Below are positions 7,619 through 22,804 of a stretch of DNA of 23,185 bases, piece after piece; within the stretch, counting starts at the first letter, position 1, and each line of letters begins with the position of its first letter. The position numbers and the translations under genes were made by a program. The notes beneath the pieces are model-generated. The model had not been told where the DNA came from. It did no database searches and saw nothing but the letters and a program-made list of their open reading frames with translations. The stretch is from a virus, in IMG/VR virus record IMGVR_UViG_3300029309_000335, positions 1,255 through 24,439 of that record; one strand, 5' to 3'.

Positions 7619-9166
7619 TTAATATCCAAACGTTGCATCTGCTACAGGCATACCCTGTGAAGGTCTACCCATAGGATCATAATCAAATATACTAAATCTA
7701 GGTCTAGTCATTACTCCATATCTTAGTGCGTCATAGATATGGTCTTCTGCTCTTGTATCCACATCTTCAGGATTCTTTTTATCTAAAGGTATCGCGGGTA
7801 TCTGCGATATTGTGTTTGTGCATGTATTAAAAAATACCATTCGTGGTTTTTCTGTAAACTCATCTACTTGTAATCTTCTGTGTATTTCGTTTTTACCTGC
7901 CACACGACTACCTTTACTTCTGTCTGATGGTCTCCAACGACATCCTCTTTGAACCATTTGTTCTGCAAGTGAAGGTCCTGTATCTCCACGTTTATGCCAA
8001 AGAGAACTATCTAAGACACCATATTTTATGTTACCATCTTCGTGTTCTAGCTCTAGTACCATTTCTGCCAAATCTGTGGCAAGGACTTTAGAAACATATA
8101 ACTCTCTATATAATATAAGTTGCTCATCTGGGCTAACAGCAAACCACAACACAGCACTATAAGACCCATAACCATAATCACATGCACGAAACTTAACCCA
8201 ATTTCTTGGAATGTCAAAAGGTTCAACAACATGAATATCCCTGTTAAACTCAGTAAAAGCAGCACCTTCTTTAATATCCCAATCGCCTTCAAGCAATTGT
8301 TTACGTTGGTGTTCAGGTAAGGAAAGAAGCATTGCTTCGTAATCTCCTTGACTTGACAAGTACGGATTATCAGATAATCGAGCAGGTATGAATCTTCTTT
8401 TAAATAATGACTCACCTGCTTTTTGATGTCCGTCAGGATATTTAAGAACCTTCCCTGTTTCAATATTTGTGGCATCAAATGCTCTTCCGTATGGTGCTGG
8501 GTCAATAAACATTTTTTTAACCCATTGATGTCCCGGACCTCCGGGGTTTGTTGTTGCTCTCATGTACACAGGTAGATCAGAAGCAGTAGAACGTAATCTT
8601 GATCTCATGTAGTTCCAAGCAAATGGTGTTGACCATTGTGTTAATTCATCAAAGCCTATCCAACTAAATGCTAAACCTTGATATCTTAAAACATCATCAT
8701 CACGATCTAGGTAGGACATCCATAGTCTTGCACCTGATGGTGCTACCCATTGCATCTTTCGCTCTGACCACTTGATGCCTTTGTATATGAGAGGATATAA
8801 CTCTCTTGACTTCCACACAAGTTCTCTTAACTCTTCTGTGGTATGTCTTAATAATAATCCACTAAACTGTGGATGATTCATATATCGTAGTGGGTCTGCT
8901 AACATAGCATATGATTTACCACCACCTGCACTACCACCATATAAGACTTCTCTCTCAGGTGACGCAAGAAACTCTGTTTGAGGTCCTTCGTTAGGTTTGA
9001 AAACAACATTCTGTTCTTCAACAGGTATGCTCTCTACCTCTTCTATTATCTTAGGCTTTTGCTCCGATTCTACTTTCTTCGATGGTTTTCGCTTTTTGTA
9101 TTGCTTTTTGGGCGTACTCAGACCATTTTCTAAGAGTTCTAGCCTTGTTCTTACGTTGTTGCTCAT
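7619..9166 (-). CDS. terL: Terminase large subunit
   Basis: The 515-residue packaging motor, combining an ATPase with a nuclease that cuts the concatemer. The Walker A motif is YGGSAGGGKS (residues 76-85), and a Walker B-type block is FSWIGFDEL. The coupling motif is TTNPGGPGHQW. The C-terminal RNase H-like nuclease shows its acidic residues in ACDYG, GVLDSS and EDHIYDALRYG. The first 50 residues are charged and not conserved in type. The gene starts 116 bp inside the 3' end of the upstream gene in a different frame. No strong ribosome site precedes the ATG at 9166, so coupling is likely. Confidence 0.96.
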   Translation of the reverse strand: MSNNVRTRLELLENGLSTPKKQYKKRKPSKKVESEQKPKIIEEVESIPVEEQNVVFKPNEGPQTEFLASPEREVLYGGSAGGGKSYAMLADPLRYMNHPQFSGLLLRHTTEELRELVWKSRELYPLIYKGIKWSERKMQWVAPSGARLWMSYLDRDDDVLRYQGLAFSWIGFDELTQWSTPFAWNYMRSRLRSTASDLPVYMRATTNPGGPGHQWVKKMFIDPAPYGRAFDATNIETGKVLKYPDGHQKAGESLFKRRFIPARLSDNPYLSSQGDYEAMLLSLPEHQRKQLLEGDWDIKEGAAFTEFNRDIHVVEPFDIPRNWVKFRACDYGYGSYSAVLWFAVSPDEQLILYRELYVSKVLATDLAEMVLELEHEDGNIKYGVLDSSLWHKRGDTGPSLAEQMVQRGCRWRPSDRSKGSRVAGKNEIHRRLQVDEFTEKPRMVFFNTCTNTISQIPAIPLDKKNPEDVDTRAEDHIYDALRYGVMTRPRFSIFDYDPMGRPSQGMPVADATFGY

Positions 9167-15345: not shown

Positions 15346-15552
15346 TTATGTATCTTTCCATCCCTCTTCTTTCATTATCCTTTCTACATGAGCTAACGAA
15401 AACTTTTGTCCACTACGAGCCTCAACTGCTGCTCTTACGTAGTAAACATCACTGTGGGGAATATGTAATTTATCTAATCTATTAGTACGGACAGCACGAT
15501 AAAATGCTTTAAGCACATTATCTGTATATAGTTTTACGGATTTTTTCCTCAT
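15346..15552 (-). CDS. First gene of the minus-strand block, small conserved protein
   Basis: A 68-residue protein MRKKSVKLYTDNVLKAFYRA then VRTNRLDKLHIPHSDVYYVR. A compact helical protein ending in a Lys/Glu-rich tail, of a type I remember from marine phages without known function. The ATG at 15552 is preferred over an upstream in-frame TTG at 15558. No clear ribosome site is visible. It is the first gene after the repeat array and promoter at 15598-15695, so it heads the late transcript. Confidence 0.7.
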   Translation of the reverse strand: MRKKSVKLYTDNVLKAFYRAVRTNRLDKLHIPHSDVYYVRAAVEARSGQKFSLAHVERIMKEEGWKDT

Positions 15553-15597
15553 TGTCAAGTTCTATGTATATTTACGTAGGGGGTTGTTAGATAAGAC

Positions 15598-15662
15598 ACA
15601 TTATAAATGTTATTATATATTAAATGTATATAACATTATAAATGTTAACATTTTAAATGTAA
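15598..15662. repeat. Four-unit repeat array (ACATT-N3-AATGT type)
   Basis: Units start at 15598, 15615 (degenerate), 15633 and 15648, so spacings are 17, 18 and 15 bp. Each is about 15 bp and itself a dyad: ACATTATAAATGTTA twice, ACATTTTAAATGTAA once. It covers about positions +1 to +60 of the predicted late transcript, so it may be an operator. It could also be iterons of an origin. Confidence 0.6.
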
Positions 15663-15666
15663 CCTA

Positions 15667-15695
15667 GTTGTATCATATTTTTATTAAAATGTCAA
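15667..15695 (-). promoter_or_regulatory. Sigma-70-type promoter for the minus-strand block
   Basis: On the minus strand TTGACA (15690-15695) is followed after 17 bp by TACAAC (15667-15672), with TG one base before the -10 (extended form). Predicted start near 15660, about 110 nt before the first ATG. The repeat array follows at once. Confidence 0.6.
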
Positions 15696-15894
15696 ATCAG
15701 CTAAAGTGTTTGCCCGGCTGTCCTTATTCATATACTTTTAAAAAACATATTGACAGTTATCCTAGTGGTTAACACTTGATTTTTCTAATCTGTGTATTTG
15801 TACATGCATATAACGTGGGTACGGGGGTGTGGCAGTCGCATGGCATGGGCAAAAATGATAGTTTTTAGGCAAGATTGACGCAAAAAAATAATTT

Positions 15895-15909
15895 TTACCA
15901 AGTTGTTAA
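15895..15909. repeat. Dyad repeat copy 1, TTACCAA-G-TTGTTAA
   Basis: First of eight copies of a 15-bp dyad with seven-base half-sites around one central base. It lies upstream of all sigma-54 promoters. Confidence 0.65.
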
Positions 15910-15950
15910 GAATAATGTATTGATTTTATTACATTTTTTATTGTTAAGTA

Positions 15951-15967
15951 ACTGATATTGTATCAGT
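15951..15967. repeat. Inverted repeat ACTGATA-N3-TATCAGT
   Basis: A perfect 7-bp inverted repeat with a three-base centre, followed by TTTTC. It lies 15 bp upstream of the first sigma-54 promoter. It could be a protein site or a weak terminator. The stem is short. Confidence 0.45.
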
Positions 15968-15982
15968 TTTCTTTATATAACT

Positions 15983-15998
15983 TGGCACAAATCTTGCA
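15983..15998 (+). promoter_or_regulatory. Sigma-54-type promoter 1
   Basis: TGGCACAAATCTTGCA matches TGGCACG-N4-TTGCW with one mismatch. GG and GC are exactly ten bases apart. Confidence 0.68.
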
Positions 15999-16056
15999 TT
16001 AGCAAATTCCATGCCAAATTGCAGAATAGGAGCATATATTTTTTTATGGTCGTTTT

Positions 16057-16072
16057 TGGCACGATTCTTGCT
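16057..16072 (+). promoter_or_regulatory. Sigma-54-type promoter 2
   Basis: TGGCACGATTCTTGCT is an exact match to TGGCACG-N4-TTGCW. The 14 bases TCGTTTTTGGCACG covering its -24 element recur at promoter 5 (17250). Confidence 0.75.
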
Positions 16073-16079
16073 ACTATCA

Positions 16080-16097
16080 CTGTCAAAATTTTGACAG
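16080..16097. promoter_or_regulatory. Perfect 18-bp palindrome with TGT-N10-ACA core
   Basis: CTGTCAAAATTTTGACAG is a perfect palindrome. Its TGT-N10-ACA form is the form of NifA-type enhancer sites, which bind activators of sigma-54 promoters. It lies about 170 bp upstream of the predicted start of promoter 4. Whether an activator binds is inference. Confidence 0.6.
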
Positions 16098-16120
16098 GGG
16101 GGAGCGTCAAAAAAGCAGCT

Positions 16121-16136
16121 TGTCAATAATTTGACA
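16121..16136. promoter_or_regulatory. Second TGT-N10-ACA palindrome
   Basis: TGTCAATAATTTGACA is a near-perfect palindrome centred 40 bp from the first. It ends 11 bp before promoter 3. Confidence 0.58.
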
Positions 16137-16147
16137 CCTATCAAAGT

Positions 16148-16163
16148 TGGCACGGAAATTGCA
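16148..16163 (+). promoter_or_regulatory. Sigma-54-type promoter 3
   Basis: TGGCACGGAAATTGCA is an exact match to TGGCACG-N4-TTGCW. Promoter 5 has the identical 16 bases. Confidence 0.78.
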
Positions 16164-16190
16164 TACTACTACTATGTTTATGTTTAATTC

Positions 16191-16205
16191 TTACCAAGTT
16201 GTTAA
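16191..16205. repeat. Dyad repeat copy 2
   Basis: TTACCAAGTTGTTAA in the longer context AATTC-repeat-AAA. It lies between promoter 3 and promoter 4. Confidence 0.7.
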
Positions 16206-16211
16206 AAATTC

Positions 16212-16226
16212 TTACCAAGTTGTTAA
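16212..16226. repeat. Dyad repeat copy 3
   Basis: TTACCAAGTTGTTAA, starting exactly 21 bp (two helical turns) after copy 2. It abuts promoter 4. The pair could bind a regulator cooperatively. Confidence 0.72.
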
Positions 16227-16230
16227 GTTT

Positions 16231-16246
16231 TGGCATAACAATTGCA
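16231..16246 (+). promoter_or_regulatory. Sigma-54-type promoter 4 (weaker match), nearest to the first plus-strand gene
   Basis: TGGCATAACAATTGCA keeps the GG/GC spacing and has two mismatches in the -24 half. Predicted start near 16257, about 30 nt before the ATG at 16289. Confidence 0.55.
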
Positions 16247-16288
16247 AGATGATTTATACATTTTAATTTAATTATAGGAGAAAAAAAA

Positions 16289-16888
16289 ATGATAAATGTA
16301 AATTATAAAAATGTTGAAAAGTTAGTTAATAAAGAAAATAACTTTTTAAAATCAAGTGGTGATCTTATCCAAAATATGTATAAAGATTTTATTTGGTTTT
16401 CTAATATGTTTTGTACTGCAGAAAAAAAGGTAAAAGATAAAAATCTTGATAGTGGCGTAACTAAGGCAATTGATCAAGAATTGCAAAATTTAGGTAAGGA
16501 TTTTTACCAAGTTGTTAAAAAATGTACGCCTAACCATAAAACTGCAATGAGAAAGTTAGGAAAAAATCCTGATCAATCTATTAAAGTTGTTGAGGCTAAA
16601 ATCAAAGATTGTAAAGATAAGAAAAAACCTTTTAAAGAAAATACAATAAGAGGTTTAGGAGGTCTTTTAAATACTGCTCCTGCAGAAAAAACTTTAGATG
16701 AAGTTATTACTGAGTTTTTCAATTCAACAACTAAGAAGTTTGATATTTCAACTGTTAAATTAGTTGAGGCAATTGCAAATAATCAATCTAAAAATAAGGT
16801 TGAAAAATCTTTAGAAGATCAACAATCTAAGCAATTACATGACATTGAAGTTGCAAAAGACATGCAATTAATTGCAAGTAATTCTTAA
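16289..16888 (+). CDS. 199-residue protein of unknown function, own transcription unit
   Basis: A helical, Lys-rich protein that I do not recognise. It starts MINVNYKNVEKLVNKENNFL. A few Cys are present (about 42, 79 and 108), and the tail is Gln/Lys-rich. No signal peptide or membrane segment is seen. AGGAG lies eight bases before the ATG. It is the first gene after four sigma-54-type promoters and is followed by a strong terminator, so it is probably expressed alone. One copy of the dyad repeat lies inside the coding region (16504-16518) and another overlaps the stop. The position suggests an early or regulatory protein, which is inference. Confidence 0.78.
   Translation: MINVNYKNVEKLVNKENNFLKSSGDLIQNMYKDFIWFSNMFCTAEKKVKDKNLDSGVTKAIDQELQNLGKDFYQVVKKCTPNHKTAMRKLGKNPDQSIKVVEAKIKDCKDKKKPFKENTIRGLGGLLNTAPAEKTLDEVITEFFNSTTKKFDISTVKLVEAIANNQSKNKVEKSLEDQQSKQLHDIEVAKDMQLIASNS
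16504..16518. repeat. Dyad repeat copy 4, inside the 199-residue gene
   Basis: TTACCAAGTTGTTAA in frame in the coding sequence, encoding part of Tyr-Gln-Val-Val-Lys. A retained operator inside a gene is unusual. Confidence 0.68.
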
Positions 16889-16899
16889 CAACTTGTTAA
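16885..16899. repeat. Dyad repeat copy 5 at the gene end
   Basis: TTAACAACTTGTTAA is a perfect 7-1-7 dyad. It overlaps the stop codon of the 199-residue gene. Confidence 0.65.
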
Positions 16900-16903
16900 A
16901 TAT

Positions 16904-16938
16904 TAAGGGGGATTTATTTCCCTCTTATATTTTTTTTT
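16904..16938 (+). terminator. Rho-independent terminator after the 199-residue gene
   Basis: AAGGGGGA (16905-16912) pairs with TCCCTCTT (16919-16926), with one G-U pair and a further T-A pair, around a six-base loop. A run of nine T follows. It ends the first plus-strand unit. Confidence 0.85.
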
Positions 16939-16958
16939 GTCGCTACTATCACTAGTGG

Positions 16959-16979
16959 GGAGTGAGGAGTGAGGAGTGG
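16959..16979 (+). repeat. Three tandem GGAGTGR heptamers, ribosome-site-like
   Basis: GGAGTGA, GGAGTGA and GGAGTGG follow one another directly. A fourth GGAGTGA (16997-17003) is the ribosome site of the gene at 17007. The tandem copies are about 30-45 nt upstream of the start and may be standby ribosome sites. Confidence 0.6.
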
Positions 16980-17006
16980 CGAGTAAATTTTATATAGGAG
17001 TGAGCA

Positions 17007-17225
17007 ATGGCTAACAATACATACTATTGGGATAATGGTATTCGTGTGCATATTACACGAGGTAAATTACAATCGTCTATGGCAAGGCTTGCCAAACATA
17101 CATCAAGGCATGAGTTTGATTGGCATTCTATTGATCAGAAGGCAGACTATGTAAATACCAAACAGAAGGAGCAGACCGAACTTGACGAGGCTTTGGCTAA
17201 ATTACGTGCCACGATTGAGGAGTAA
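17007..17225 (+). CDS. 72-residue protein of unknown function
   Basis: A small protein MANNTYYWDNGIRVHITRGK, ending in a charged Glu/Lys helix (about 45-72). No recognised family, no Cys and no membrane segment. GGAGTGA lies just before the ATG. It follows the terminator at 16938, and I see no clear promoter in the 68 bases between. It ends 24 bp before sigma-54 promoter 5. It therefore forms a small unit of its own, or is fed by read-through. Confidence 0.72.
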   Translation: MANNTYYWDNGIRVHITRGKLQSSMARLAKHTSRHEFDWHSIDQKADYVNTKQKEQTELDEALAKLRATIEE

Positions 17226-17249
17226 TTTATTTTTGTCAACTATCGTTTT

Positions 17250-17265
17250 TGGCACGGAAATTGCA
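17250..17265 (+). promoter_or_regulatory. Sigma-54-type promoter 5
   Basis: TGGCACGGAAATTGCA, exact and identical to promoter 3. Predicted start near 17276, so dyad copy 6 lies at the start of the transcript. It would drive the gene set from 17311 on. Confidence 0.78.
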
Positions 17266-17280
17266 TAATATTATTAATTC

Positions 17281-17295
17281 TTACCAACTTGTTAA
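17281..17295. repeat. Dyad repeat copy 6
   Basis: TTACCAACTTGTTAA between promoter 5 and the ribosome site of the next gene. A bound protein there could block elongation or initiation. Confidence 0.7.
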
Positions 17296-17310
17296 AAAAA
17301 GGAGAAATAG

Positions 17311-17520
17311 ATGGAAAAGAGAAATAAATGTGCTGATTGTGGTTGTCTTAGCAATTACAAGGGAAACAGTAAAGTAAAGTATTATGATCGTGGTGAAACA
17401 GAATATGGAAGGTTTAGAATAGGTTATCCTTTATGCGATGATTGCTATAATAAAACTTGTAAAAACTTTTCAGACGATTATGAGGAAGGTAAACCATATT
17501 GGAGGTATGAAAGTGTATAA
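17311..17520 (+). CDS. Small zinc-ribbon-like protein
   Basis: A 69-residue protein with Cys at 7, 10 and 12 (CADCGC) and at 42, 45 and 50 (CDDCYNKTC). Two CxxC knuckles about 30 residues apart fit a zinc ribbon. Such small proteins in phages can act as regulators of host RNA polymerase or as nucleic-acid binders, but nothing here decides. GGAG lies nine bases before the ATG. It is the first gene downstream of promoter 5. The end overlaps the next gene by eight bases. Confidence 0.78.
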   Translation: MEKRNKCADCGCLSNYKGNSKVKYYDRGETEYGRFRIGYPLCDDCYNKTCKNFSDDYEEGKPYWRYESV

Positions 17521-17713
17521 TATTTTAGATGATAATGGGAATATTATAAATGATAAACCTATTAAAACAAAAAAAGAGGCAAAAGAATTTCTTAAAGAAA
17601 TATATTTAGAAGATCATGTTCCATTTTTTGAGTTAGGTTGTCGTGGAAAATTAGATGGTTTTTCTTTTAAAGAATTTTTAATTGATTTTACAATAACAAA
17701 AAAGGAGAAGTAA
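17513..17713 (+). CDS. Small acidic-basic protein, unknown function, GTG start
   Basis: A 66-residue protein with YNILDDNGNIINDKPIKTKK, then EAKEFLKEIY and a hydrophobic middle. I do not recognise the family. GGAGG at 17501-17505 is only one base before an ATG at 17507, but seven bases before GTG at 17513, so GTG is the better start. The ATG would add two residues. It overlaps the zinc-ribbon gene by eight bases and ends just before the next start. Confidence 0.65.
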   Translation: MYNILDDNGNIINDKPIKTKKEAKEFLKEIYLEDHVPFFELGCRGKLDGFSFKEFLIDFTITKKEK

Positions 17714-17902
17714 ATGATAATATTCGCTAGAACTTTAATTACAATATTTGGATTATGTTGTATATTAACAAGCTACACATTTTGGGATATAACAAGGGAA
17801 ATACTTAATCCCTTTTATATGCGAGAGCTAATTACTATTAGTTTGGCTATGTCAGGTGTGGCATTCGGTTGGATTGCAATATGTGATCCATCATGGAAAT
17901 AA
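17714..17902 (+). CDS. Small two-segment membrane protein
   Basis: A 62-residue protein with hydrophobic segments at about 3-24 and 37-57, joined by a charged loop. It starts at an ATG directly after the upstream stop, with GGAG seven bases before it. No family was recognised. It should sit in the inner membrane; a role in host-membrane change is possible. Dyad copy 7 follows its stop. Confidence 0.72.
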   Translation: MIIFARTLITIFGLCCILTSYTFWDITREILNPFYMRELITISLAMSGVAFGWIAICDPSWK

Positions 17903-17905
17903 TTC

Positions 17906-17920
17906 TTACCAACTTGTTAA
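17906..17920. repeat. Dyad repeat copy 7
   Basis: TTACCAACTTGTTAA directly before the ribosome site of the next gene, with no promoter beside it. The layout copies that of copy 6: AATTC-repeat-AAAA-AGGAG. Confidence 0.7.
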
Positions 17921-17935
17921 AAATAGGAGTTTAAC

Positions 17936-18094
17936 ATGAGTATAAAAACAGTAAACATTACTGATAAAATCAGTAAAAGAGATGCAGAGTTAGTTAGTGA
18001 GATGGTCACAGACGCTCTCATAGAAATGGGTATAAGTCTAGGCGAAGACCCATCATTTTCTTGGAATATAGAAGTAGATTATGAGGAGAAGTAA
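17936..18094 (+). CDS. 52-residue acidic protein
   Basis: An unrecognised small acidic protein MSIKTVNITDKISKRDAELV, then SEMVTDALIEMGISLGEDPS. GGAG lies eight bases before the ATG, and it ends directly before the next start. The junction and ribosome site support it. Confidence 0.7.
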   Translation: MSIKTVNITDKISKRDAELVSEMVTDALIEMGISLGEDPSFSWNIEVDYEEK

Positions 18095-18478
18095 ATGGAA
18101 AAAGTAAGAGTATATTGGAACTTACACAAAGACATTTGGAGTGTTGTGTCATGCAAGAGTGGATTAGTCATAGACTACATGAAGTATCTTACTCTTCTTG
18201 ATGCATACTTTACAGTATGGATAAGTGGACAAAAGAGAGTTCGTGAAGAGGGCAAGAAGAATGTTCATGCCTTTGCAGTAGGTTATCTTATGAGTAGTAA
18301 GCAAAGAAGTTATCATGATTGGGATAGAGTCAAGTATGATCCTTATACTGATGATTACTTCATGCACAAAGGCGAAGATCACGATAAGTGGAATGAGATA
18401 CCAAGAGATTTTGTGGGCATAATACACATGGAATCTTTACATCACGAGAATGGAATAGCACCAAGAGTTTATATATAG
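18095..18478 (+). CDS. Conserved phage protein with RxKNVHAF motif
   Basis: A 127-residue protein opening KVRVYWNLHKDIWSVVSCKS, with a middle motif SGQKRVREEGKKNVHAF. I recognise a similar motif from a widespread phage family of unknown function. A charged C-terminus ends the protein, with several Asp, His and Tyr. GGAG lies before the ATG, inside the previous gene's end. A compact beta-type fold is likely. The function is unknown. Confidence 0.78.
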   Translation: MEKVRVYWNLHKDIWSVVSCKSGLVIDYMKYLTLLDAYFTVWISGQKRVREEGKKNVHAFAVGYLMSSKQRSYHDWDRVKYDPYTDDYFMHKGEDHDKWNEIPRDFVGIIHMESLHHENGIAPRVYI

Positions 18479-18487
18479 GAGGTATTT

Positions 18488-19291
18488 ATGGCTATTATTT
18501 ACGATTTATCTAAGTTACCTAAGAAGGTACAAGATCAAATACGAAACACACCTAAATTTACCAAATGGTTTAGTGAGTTTCCAAAACAATTATTTAACAA
18601 AGATGCCAATCCAAAAACTATCAAAGGGCAAAAGTATGGTACACTTACATACATACTGTATATGTCCTCACACAAAGAGAGTGGAGTCAATCTATGTGCT
18701 ATGGCAGATATTGCAGGTTGTGTAGAACCTTGTCTCAAGAATCAAGGTCGTGGTAAAATGACGAGTGTACAAATGTCTAGATTGCGTAAGACTTTGTTTT
18801 ATTTACAGTTCTTTGCTGAGTTCATGGCTATGTTCAAAAAAGAGTTGCGTCTTGGTTTGGCTAGAGCAAAACGATTAGGCTATAATTTTGCAGTAAGACC
18901 AAATGGTACGACAGATATTCGTTGGGAGTTGCGTATTTGGAATTATATGGTTGAGATGTATAAGCAAGGTTTACAATGGTACGACTATACCAAGATACCT
19001 AATCGTCTAGTACCTTGTTCAAAAGTTTATGACTTGACGTTTAGTTATAGTGGTAAAAAAGAGTATCTGCCTTTTGTGGATAAAGCTATCAAACTAGGTA
19101 TGCGTATTGCAGTTGTATTTAGATACAAAGATATCATTCCCAAAACTTTCTTAGGTATGCAAGTTGTAGATGGAGATGATCATGACTTACGATATACAGA
19201 ACCTATGGGAGTAGTATCTGCCTTGTATGCTAAAGGCGATGCAGTTCATAATGACAATGGATTTGTTGTGGGAGAAAGGAGAGTGGCATGA
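18488..19291 (+). CDS. GP88-family protein
   Basis: A 267-residue protein with the phage GP88 signature: SSHKESGVNLCAMADIAGCV, then CLKNQGRGKMTS and, further on, VRPNGTTDIRWE. Three conserved Cys at 70, 78 and 82 suggest a metal or Fe-S site. GP88 proteins occur in many unrelated phages, and their reaction is not known to me. AGGAGG precedes the ATG with good spacing. Its stop overlaps the next start as ATGA. Length and motifs look intact. Confidence 0.88.
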   Translation: MAIIYDLSKLPKKVQDQIRNTPKFTKWFSEFPKQLFNKDANPKTIKGQKYGTLTYILYMSSHKESGVNLCAMADIAGCVEPCLKNQGRGKMTSVQMSRLRKTLFYLQFFAEFMAMFKKELRLGLARAKRLGYNFAVRPNGTTDIRWELRIWNYMVEMYKQGLQWYDYTKIPNRLVPCSKVYDLTFSYSGKKEYLPFVDKAIKLGMRIAVVFRYKDIIPKTFLGMQVVDGDDHDLRYTEPMGVVSALYAKGDAVHNDNGFVVGERRVA

Positions 19292-19464
19292 CAACAGTAA
19301 ATGATTTATTCAATATGTTTGATTTGCATCAGCGTTTATGCAAGATATCAAACATGAGATCGCTAGACTTTGAGGACTTTACTTTAGTATTTATACAAAG
19401 TAATTACACAGACGTACAAGCGAATGCATTTAAAAAACTTACCAAGTTGGTAAAAAATGACTAA
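19288..19464 (+). CDS. 58-residue protein carrying a dyad repeat
   Basis: A short protein MTTVNDLFNMFDLHQRLCKI, then SNMRSLDFEDFTLVFIQSNY and a Lys-rich end. No family was recognised. Its ATG overlaps the GP88 stop as ATGA. Its 3' end contains dyad copy 8 and overlaps the next ORF by eight bases. GGAG lies about ten bases before the start. Confidence 0.66.
   Translation: MTTVNDLFNMFDLHQRLCKISNMRSLDFEDFTLVFIQSNYTDVQANAFKKLTKLVKND
19439..19453. repeat. Dyad repeat copy 8, perfect form
   Basis: TTACCAAGTTGGTAA is a perfect 7-1-7 dyad, in the coding end of the 58-residue gene, just before the next start. Confidence 0.68.
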
Positions 19465-21376: not shown

Positions 21377-21597
21377 AAGTTTTAAATTCATTAAAATTAA
21401 AAGATGTGTTCTACGAGTTTGTACACACCAGAAAAACTAGTTTCGAGGAGTTAGAGTATACTGCTCGTCACATGGGATATCTTTTAGTAGGCATAAAGTT
21501 TCCTAACGATCATGTTTACAAAGATAGACCACCATCTCCTGCTTACTTAATTGTAGAGCATGGACAAACAAATAAACATTACAGATTGGAGGTATAG
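21373..21597 (+). CDS. 74-residue protein of unknown function
   Basis: A small protein MKVLNSLKLKDVFYEFVHTR, then KTSFEELEYTARHMGYLLVG. It has a compact helical first half and a beta-type end. GAGGAG lies ten bases before the ATG, which overlaps the previous stop as ATGA. It ends one base before the methyltransferase start. No family was recognised. Confidence 0.68.
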   Translation: MKVLNSLKLKDVFYEFVHTRKTSFEELEYTARHMGYLLVGIKFPNDHVYKDRPPSPAYLIVEHGQTNKHYRLEV

Positions 21598-21598
21598 T

Positions 21599-22804
21599 AT
21601 GAATGTATTAAGTTTATTTGATGGCATGTCATGTGGGCAACTTGCCCTAGAACGTGCCAATGTATCTGTAGATAATTACTTTGCTTGTGAGATAGACAAG
21701 TATGCAATGCAGATAGCTAACAAAAATTTTCCTAACACAATACAGTTGGGAGATGTATCAGAGTTTAGTGAAGATTATTTTAAAGCACACAATCACTTTG
21801 ATGACCCACCTATAGATTTACTTATGGGTGGCTCGCCATGTCAGGGATTTTCTTTTGCGGGAGATCAGTTGGCATTTGATGATCCACGTTCTAAGTTATT
21901 CTTTGAATTTATAAGAATTATGAATGAGTTAAAACCTAAATACGTATTGCTTGAGAATGTACGAATGAAGAAACAGTTTGAAGATGTGATTACAGAACAC
22001 ATGGGATTCCCACCACAGTTACGAAATTCAAGCAGTCTATCTCCACAAAACAGATGGAGAAACTATTGGTTTGGTATGCTAATCGATGGCAAGTATGAAC
22101 AGATAATCATACCACCTATGGAAGACAAAGGCTTAGTGTTAAAAGATATACTGCAAGAAGATCATGATGAGCCACCTGTTCCTATCAATGAACGCAATGC
22201 TAGGCATCATCGATCAGCAGATCAAAAAGCCTTATGTACTACTGCTACCATGCACAAAGGTGCAGGTAACAATGGCATGACGATTGTCGATAGGCTAGTA
22301 GAAGTAGGCTATGCTGATAAGTATGCACATTACAAACATGGTCAAGCCAAGCGAGTATATCACATGAATGGCAAAGCACCTACGCTACTCACTATGCAAG
22401 GTGGTAACAGAGAGCCTAAAGTTGCTACGTATTCACCTAAAGGTGGTCGCATTGTTAATCGTAGGCTTGATGAGAATGGTGTTCGCAAAGATTATCAAAT
22501 GAAACTACCTCTCACACCACAGATAGAAGTACGAGGTGACTACAAAACAAACTGTTTAACAACTGTACAAAAAGATAATATCGTGGTAGAAGGTATGACA
22601 TGGAGAAAGTTAACACCTATCGAGTGCGAGAGATTACAGACTTTGCCTGACAATTACACAGAAGGTGTGTCAAAGACACAACGATACAAGATGATTGGGA
22701 ATGGTTGGACAGTTGATGTGATTGCACATATACTAGGTGAGACACTGCTCCCGAAAAAAATAAAGTCTGACAACTATGAGAAAGGATATTTTGTACATGT
22801 CTAA
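21599..22804 (+). CDS. DNA (cytosine-5) methyltransferase, orphan
   Basis: A 401-residue enzyme that transfers a methyl group from AdoMet to carbon 5 of cytosine in DNA. Motif I is LSLFDGMSCGQLALER (4-19). Motif IV is GGSPCQGFSFAG (77-88), with the catalytic P80-C81. Motif VI is ENV (119-121) and motif VIII is QNRWR (150-154). The target-recognition region is about 190-320, and motif X is GNGWTVDVIAHI near the end. All key residues are present. The ATG at 21599 has GGAGG six bases before it; a longer frame from 21560 overlaps the previous gene. No restriction enzyme lies beside it, so it likely protects phage DNA from host restriction. Confidence 0.95.
   Translation: MNVLSLFDGMSCGQLALERANVSVDNYFACEIDKYAMQIANKNFPNTIQLGDVSEFSEDYFKAHNHFDDPPIDLLMGGSPCQGFSFAGDQLAFDDPRSKLFFEFIRIMNELKPKYVLLENVRMKKQFEDVITEHMGFPPQLRNSSSLSPQNRWRNYWFGMLIDGKYEQIIIPPMEDKGLVLKDILQEDHDEPPVPINERNARHHRSADQKALCTTATMHKGAGNNGMTIVDRLVEVGYADKYAHYKHGQAKRVYHMNGKAPTLLTMQGGNREPKVATYSPKGGRIVNRRLDENGVRKDYQMKLPLTPQIEVRGDYKTNCLTTVQKDNIVVEGMTWRKLTPIECERLQTLPDNYTEGVSKTQRYKMIGNGWTVDVIAHILGETLLPKKIKSDNYEKGYFVHV

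Follow-up and report, generated by a model that had tools for sequence, protein, structure and literature searches.

Six −24/−12 sites within 1.3 kb of the genome of an uncultured marine podovirus are very probably real promoters for host RNA polymerase containing sigma-54 (RpoN), opened by a host activator, with the individual sites and the accompanying dyads R1 and R2 taking the roles proposed below. The window, which is the whole stretch of DNA that was analysed (23,185 bases), represents most of a 24,439-base IMG/VR record that is itself incomplete. The terminase large subunit of the window (7619–9166, minus strand), which was used for phage identification, shares 78–84% identity with those of Roseobacter phage CRP-1, Puniceispirillum phage HMO-2011 and Roseobacter phage CRP-345 and 53% identity with that of HTVC033P. 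The 78–84% identity assigns the window to the HMO-2011-type marine podoviruses, and two opposed gene blocks and a shared anchor gene are also found.

Genomic context of the array

The structural and packaging genes of the window run leftward and end at 15558, and a second block runs rightward from 16289, the same two-block layout as in HMO-2011, CRP-1, CRP-345 and HTVC033P. The two blocks are located at opposite record ends in the cultured relatives, and the window therefore spans the block junction. The leftward block starts with a 70-aa gene (15346–15558, minus strand), which is also present in five HMO-2011-type isolates and served as the anchor for comparing relatives. The first plus-strand gene encodes 199 aa (16289–16888), and a 69-aa gene is located further downstream (17311–17520, plus strand). 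The rightward block also contains a cytosine-5 DNA methyltransferase gene (21560–22804), and two adjacent genes of the window (18095–18478 and 18488–19291) give Pfam matches to Phage_L5_gp82 (PF25735, mycobacteriophage L5) and GP88 (PF17338). Promoters are not mentioned in the paper on the HMO-2011 group (PMC9038755).

The six sigma-54 sites

The sequence-only reading of the window had listed exact TGGCAC-N5-TTGC sequences on the plus strand at 15983, 16057, 16148 and 17250, all of which are present, as is a weaker fifth site at 16231 (TGGCATAACAATTGC). The fifth site has one mismatch to TGGCAC-N5-TTGC, yet it fits the full consensus TGGCAYRN4TTGCW. A common plus-strand orientation had also been claimed, which holds for these five sites but not for a sixth, previously overlooked site. 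This full-consensus site (TTGGCATGGAATTTGC, 16017–16002) is located on the minus strand and faces the 15983 site across a 4-bp gap, generating a 36-bp palindrome. In the main cluster, the sites are designated A+ (TTGGCACAAATCTTGCA, 15982–15998), A− (TTGGCATGGAATTTGCT, 16001–16017, minus strand), B+ (TTGGCACGATTCTTGCT, 16056–16072), C+ (TTGGCACGGAAATTGCA, 16147–16163) and D+ (TTGGCATAACAATTGCA, 16230–16246), and the plus-strand sites are spaced 74–91 bp apart. The remaining site, E+ (TTGGCACGGAAATTGCA, 17249–17265), is located downstream of the 199-aa gene. A+, B+, C+ and E+ combine the exact consensus with support from alignment, and D+ combines the full consensus with an invariant core; all six sites show the consensus with exact spacing. 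Five sites are found in the gap at 15559–16288 and one in the gap at 17226–17310.

Transcription is predicted to start at ∼16009 from A+, ∼15990 from A−, ∼16257 from D+ and ∼17276 from E+. The predicted D+ start lies 32 nt upstream of the 199-aa gene, which would be under A+ to D+, and the predicted E+ start lies 35 nt upstream of the 69-aa gene, which would be under E+. Both start codons are preceded by a ribosome-binding site. A chance origin had been considered very unlikely, and dinucleotide shuffles lead to the same view, with 0.045 exact sites expected per window versus 4 observed, 0.05 full-consensus sites expected versus 6 observed and, in the 730-bp intergenic stretch alone, 0.002 expected versus 5 observed. 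The reversed pattern gives 0 matches, and no further exact TGGCAC-N5-TTGC site is found elsewhere in the 24.4-kb record.

Conservation in relatives

The window was aligned with 13 relatives from viral contigs, yielding 12 sequences once two near-duplicates were dropped and fewer at the outer sites, where contigs end. In the 12-sequence alignment, 57 of the 58 scorable core columns are invariant, including the entire A+ core. Mean pairwise differences amount to 0.003 (core), 0.19 (spacer) and 0.32 (flanks), and the core-versus-flank contrast was reached in none of 20,000 permutations. Degenerate positions vary as C/T at Y and A/G at R, that is, inside the sigma-54 consensus. The sites survive indels between them and even the insertion of a whole gene (G012), and the A− core is kept in all relatives except L216 and L217 (TTGC to TTGT). 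Such conservation is the pattern expected of selection on −24/−12 promoters and is the strongest evidence in the case; with cores unchanged in diverged relatives and substitutions staying inside the consensus, the sigma-54 interpretation of the earlier reading is supported. The window shares with bacterial RpoN promoters the TGGCAYRN4TTGCW consensus, the fixed spacing and the behaviour of the degenerate positions, and it has candidate upstream activator dyads, but it differs in that its sites are phage-borne, number six within 1.3 kb and include one face-to-face pair.

A TAGGAG ribosome-binding-like sequence just past A+ (16028–16038) is also invariant in the relatives, with no conserved frame behind it. 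A small leader peptide downstream of A+ (start codon near 16053) was considered and rejected because its frame is lost in one relative (G014).

Probable gain of the array within the group

In one clade, all members have the array at a distance of 423–487 nt from the 70-aa anchor gene, with A− broken in the two relatives noted above. No sigma-54 sites occur in six sister contigs that span the whole region, and a seventh (L054) contains two scattered sites located elsewhere. The comparison included 14 cultured HMO-2011-type and allied phages that infect SAR116, roseobacters, SAR11, Sinorhizobium or Rhizobium. Full-consensus sites are absent from 12 of them, and the other two contain a single isolated site each; unlike the window, none of the cultured HMO-2011-type members tested carries the array. 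In the terminase tree, the array bearers all fall to one side of a branch (support 91/99) and are nested among non-bearers. This topology reads as a single gain, and the array was probably gained once. Absence of the sites in close relatives had been named in advance as grounds for giving up the sigma-54 reading. The cultured relatives and sister lineages indeed lack the array, but the tree reads as one gain and not as decay.

Sinorhizobium and Rhizobium possess rpoN, and their phages among the 14 are without arrays; host rpoN alone does not bring the sites. Three relatives (G027, G041 and G043) of the Pelagibacter phages HTVC103P, HTVC104P and HTVC115P contain one facing sigma-54 pair each, and no facing pair is found in the cultured pelagiphages. 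SAR11 hosts are not known to carry rpoN, and the three uncultured relatives may therefore infect other hosts.

Dyads and a sigma-70-like promoter near the array

Two dyads of the form TGTCAA-N4-TTGACA, R2a (TGTCAAAATTTTGACA, 16081–16096) and R2b (TGTCAATAATTTGACA, 16121–16136), are candidate activator (enhancer) sites. The pair is spaced 40–41 bp between centres in the sigma-54-bearing relatives (40 bp in the window), is slightly degraded in one bearer (L116) and never occurs as a tandem pair in the sister lineages. Relative to the predicted starts, the dyads are located at −98/−138 of A−, −168/−128 of D+ and −86/−46 of C+, and distances of this kind are usual for sigma-54 activator sites. The activator-like distance and the pairing only with the array make R2 the best candidate enhancer. 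Both dyads also match TGT-N10-ACA, the NifA-type upstream activator motif. However, R2a overlaps the predicted B+ start, and R2 could also be a repressor site. It is quite possible, although we lean against it, that the array is of the sigma-54 type but R2 is a repressor operator, with the host activator acting from solution or from unrecognised sites. This arrangement would accommodate the B+ overlap and the finding that no enhancer dyad is common to other phage clades, but it leaves unaccounted for the co-occurrence of the R2 pair with the array and not with the sisters, the regular 40–41-bp spacing and the distances of −98 to −168 from A− and D+. A reading of R2 as sigma-70 −35 boxes was rejected because no matching −10 is found.

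Dyad R1 (TTACCAAGTTGTTAA, 15895–15909) is a candidate repressor operator with further copies at 16191, 16212, 16504, 16885, 17281, 17906 and 19439. In all, eight copies (TTACCAASTTGTTAA, close variants counted) are distributed over 15895–19453. One copy is located inside a gene and two immediately before ribosome-binding sites, and the positions are conserved. Symmetric variants (TTACCAAGTTGGTAA and TTAACCAAGTTGGTTAA) occur in relatives, and the R1 core CCAAGTTGG is found also in sister lineages without sigma-54 sites. R1 has the appearance of a phage repressor operator, comparable to the scattered repressor operators of phages. Assignment of R1 as an NtrC or CtrA site was rejected, given that the likeness is partial and that R1 is present in sisters without sigma-54 sites. 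A third dyad, R3 (AACTGATATTGTATCAGTT, 15950–15968), lies directly upstream of A+ and is conserved in the alignment.

On the leftward side, a sigma-70-like promoter, TTGACA-17-TACAAC, is found at 15667–15695 (minus strand). In most sister lineages, a perfect TTGACA-17-TATAAT points leftward near the anchor gene. With this promoter kept as TTGACA-17-TACAAC in the window, leftward transcription probably does not depend on sigma-54 alone.

Sigma-54 clusters in other viruses

Control by sigma-54 had been described as a rare way to run a phage, a view that is not borne out, as clusters occur in numerous viral contigs and also in Pseudomonas phages from culture. A facing-pair pattern scan of viral contigs returned at least 119 stretches from many lineages, and facing pairs with a gap of 3–7 bp are present in more than 100 viral contigs. 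With the gap left free, 3–7 bp predominates among the viral matches listed. The same search for facing pairs, run to completion on 257 Gb of genomes from bacteria and archaea, yielded 18 matches, of which two have a 3–7-bp gap, both on contigs of 4–5 kb. In 201 viral half-sites from among the matches listed, the position left free behind TTGGCAY holds A or G in 99%, and TTGC is followed by A or T in 86% and by G in 1%, preferences that correspond to those known for sigma-54. Viral records with a facing pair contain up to 20 sites each, frequently confined to stretches of several hundred bases to several kb, and the reversed pattern is absent from all 33 records tested. Among the matches listed, 71 facing pairs have an unambiguous coding strand to either side; 51 of them are located at divergent junctions and 20 in the three non-divergent arrangements taken together, with two convergent cases. 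A terminase gene is found in 21 of 26 records, often a few kb or less from the cluster. Tying phage genes to the host sigma-54 switch thus looks far commoner than thought.

Outward-facing pairs are likewise frequent among the viral-contig matches listed. Facing geometry alone was therefore rejected as a virus-specific trait, and the trait consists of dense bidirectional sigma-54 clusters rather than of the palindrome alone. A universal enhancer dyad near the viral pairs was also rejected, as only homopolymer runs and simple repeats were observed; TGT-N10-ACA is present in 18 of 85 flanks, which was judged near chance. At contig ends (the L172 tail, which corresponds to G045 56980–57271, and G045 1–127), five to ten identical sigma-54 sites are arranged head to tail every 26 bp. 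These repeats are too dense for one polymerase each and are perhaps decoys or iteron-like. Five phage contigs (L132, L143, L190, L193 and L194) contain three 36-bp facing pairs with a 54-bp period. A Chitinophagales bacterium contig (L303) contains eleven full-consensus sigma-54 sites in 8 kb, which may belong to a prophage or form a sigma-54 cluster of the bacterium.

Sigma-54 sites in cultured Pseudomonas phages

The Pseudomonas phages phiMK and PAK_P4 (Pakpunavirus) contain a perfect facing pair separated by 4 bp, and phiPMW and Bitten contain two pairs each with the same gap and one mismatch in one site per pair. Matches to the phiMK region are present in 134 Pseudomonas phage records. In seven aligned Pakpunavirus genomes (including PAK_P4, JG004 and phiMK), TGGCA, TTGC, GCAA and TGCCA are unchanged, and the variable columns within the pair are the degenerate consensus positions. 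The intergenic facing pair, its 4-bp gap and its invariant core are shared with the window, but these are unrelated, larger phages of ∼93 kb. An antisense RNA of PAK_P4 annotated from RNA-seq (minus strand, 55650–55850; L424 2151–2351) begins within the facing pair (55822–55857). The sigma-70-like promoter proposed for this RNA in the PAK_P4 record (55811–55784) lies inside the RNA, downstream of its start, and thus does not explain that start. The RNA coordinates look rounded, which makes their match with the pair a hint only.

Precedent for such control exists in Pseudomonas phage YuA, whose record annotates three highly active −24/−12 promoters in the structural region. Dependence of these promoters on rpoN was reportedly published in 2008. 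The YuA promoters are of the sigma-54 class, as in the window, but they are single, have 3–5 consensus mismatches and form neither an array nor a facing pair; because of this poor fit, YuA was rejected as a perfect-consensus control. The open-licence literature yielded no account of phage sigma-54 arrays or facing pairs, and a claim of novelty is limited to that literature, with subscription papers mostly outside it. Sigma-54 phage promoters as such were already known from YuA; arrays of perfect-consensus sites, face-to-face pairs and a gain between closely related lineages appear to be new.

Proposed mechanism and alternatives

Neither an AAA+ activator domain (PF00158) nor an RpoN DNA-binding domain (PF04552) was detected in 37 viral records, including the clade of the window, under positive controls; given the incomplete clade genomes, this absence is provisional. 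A phage-encoded sigma-54 system was thus not found in these records, and we infer a host activator. Host RNA polymerase with sigma-54 would be held at the sites as closed complexes and would open only upon ATP hydrolysis by a host AAA+ activator (bEBP), for which the R2 pair is the likely site. The host would accordingly be one with rpoN. The rightward block, from the 199-aa gene onward, would be started from A+ to E+, and A− would add leftward transcription to a block that still keeps its sigma-70-like promoter. A− and A+ face each other so closely that there would be room for only one polymerase. R1 would be a phage repressor operator passed down from ancestors that lacked sigma-54 sites.

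Closed complexes are stable in the absence of an activator, and clustered perfect sites could instead be decoys that sequester host sigma-54 polymerase and deprive the host sigma-54 regulon (motility, nitrogen and envelope functions) of it. Some viral clusters, such as the 26-bp tandem repeats and the 36-bp pairs every 54 bp, are indeed too dense for productive use of each site. Nonetheless, a decoy function is improbable for the window, where D+ and E+ are correctly positioned before genes and the plus-strand sites of the main cluster stand 74–91 bp apart; the preference of facing pairs for divergent junctions and the annotated activity of the same promoter class in YuA point the same way. 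Binding of the motif by a phage protein of sigma-54-like specificity, such as a dimeric regulator at the 36-bp palindrome, would fit the restricted 3–7-bp facing geometry and its occurrence mainly in viruses. It is highly improbable because the 37 records contain no sigma-54 DNA-binding domain, the partnerless sites B+ to E+ are equally conserved, the gap varies by almost half a turn of the helix, pairs facing outward are common too and the base preferences are those of sigma-54. Chance matches of a short motif in AT-rich intergenic DNA have a negligible probability: 0.05 sites are expected per window and six are present, and the conservation in relatives already refutes this reading.

Implications for phage gene control

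Transcription of phage genes is usually attributed to host sigma-70 or to polymerases and sigma factors of the phage itself. A sigma-54 promoter, by comparison, is shut until an ATP-driven activator answers a cell signal, and a phage that uses one hands part of its timing to host physiology. On balance, we favour the view that perfect sigma-54 clusters with 3–7-bp facing pairs at divergent junctions are a widespread, almost virus-specific control element, through which many unrelated phage lineages independently put their block switch under the control of host sigma-54 and an activator of the host, and which can be gained between close lineages. If such arrays are common, as the scans suggest, they would provide a sequence-based hint of host sigma-54 use, may account for unassigned transcription in cultured Pseudomonas phages and would offer a clean natural case of promoter-class gain. 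As the element is present in cultured P. aeruginosa phages, the question is directly testable in laboratory strains.
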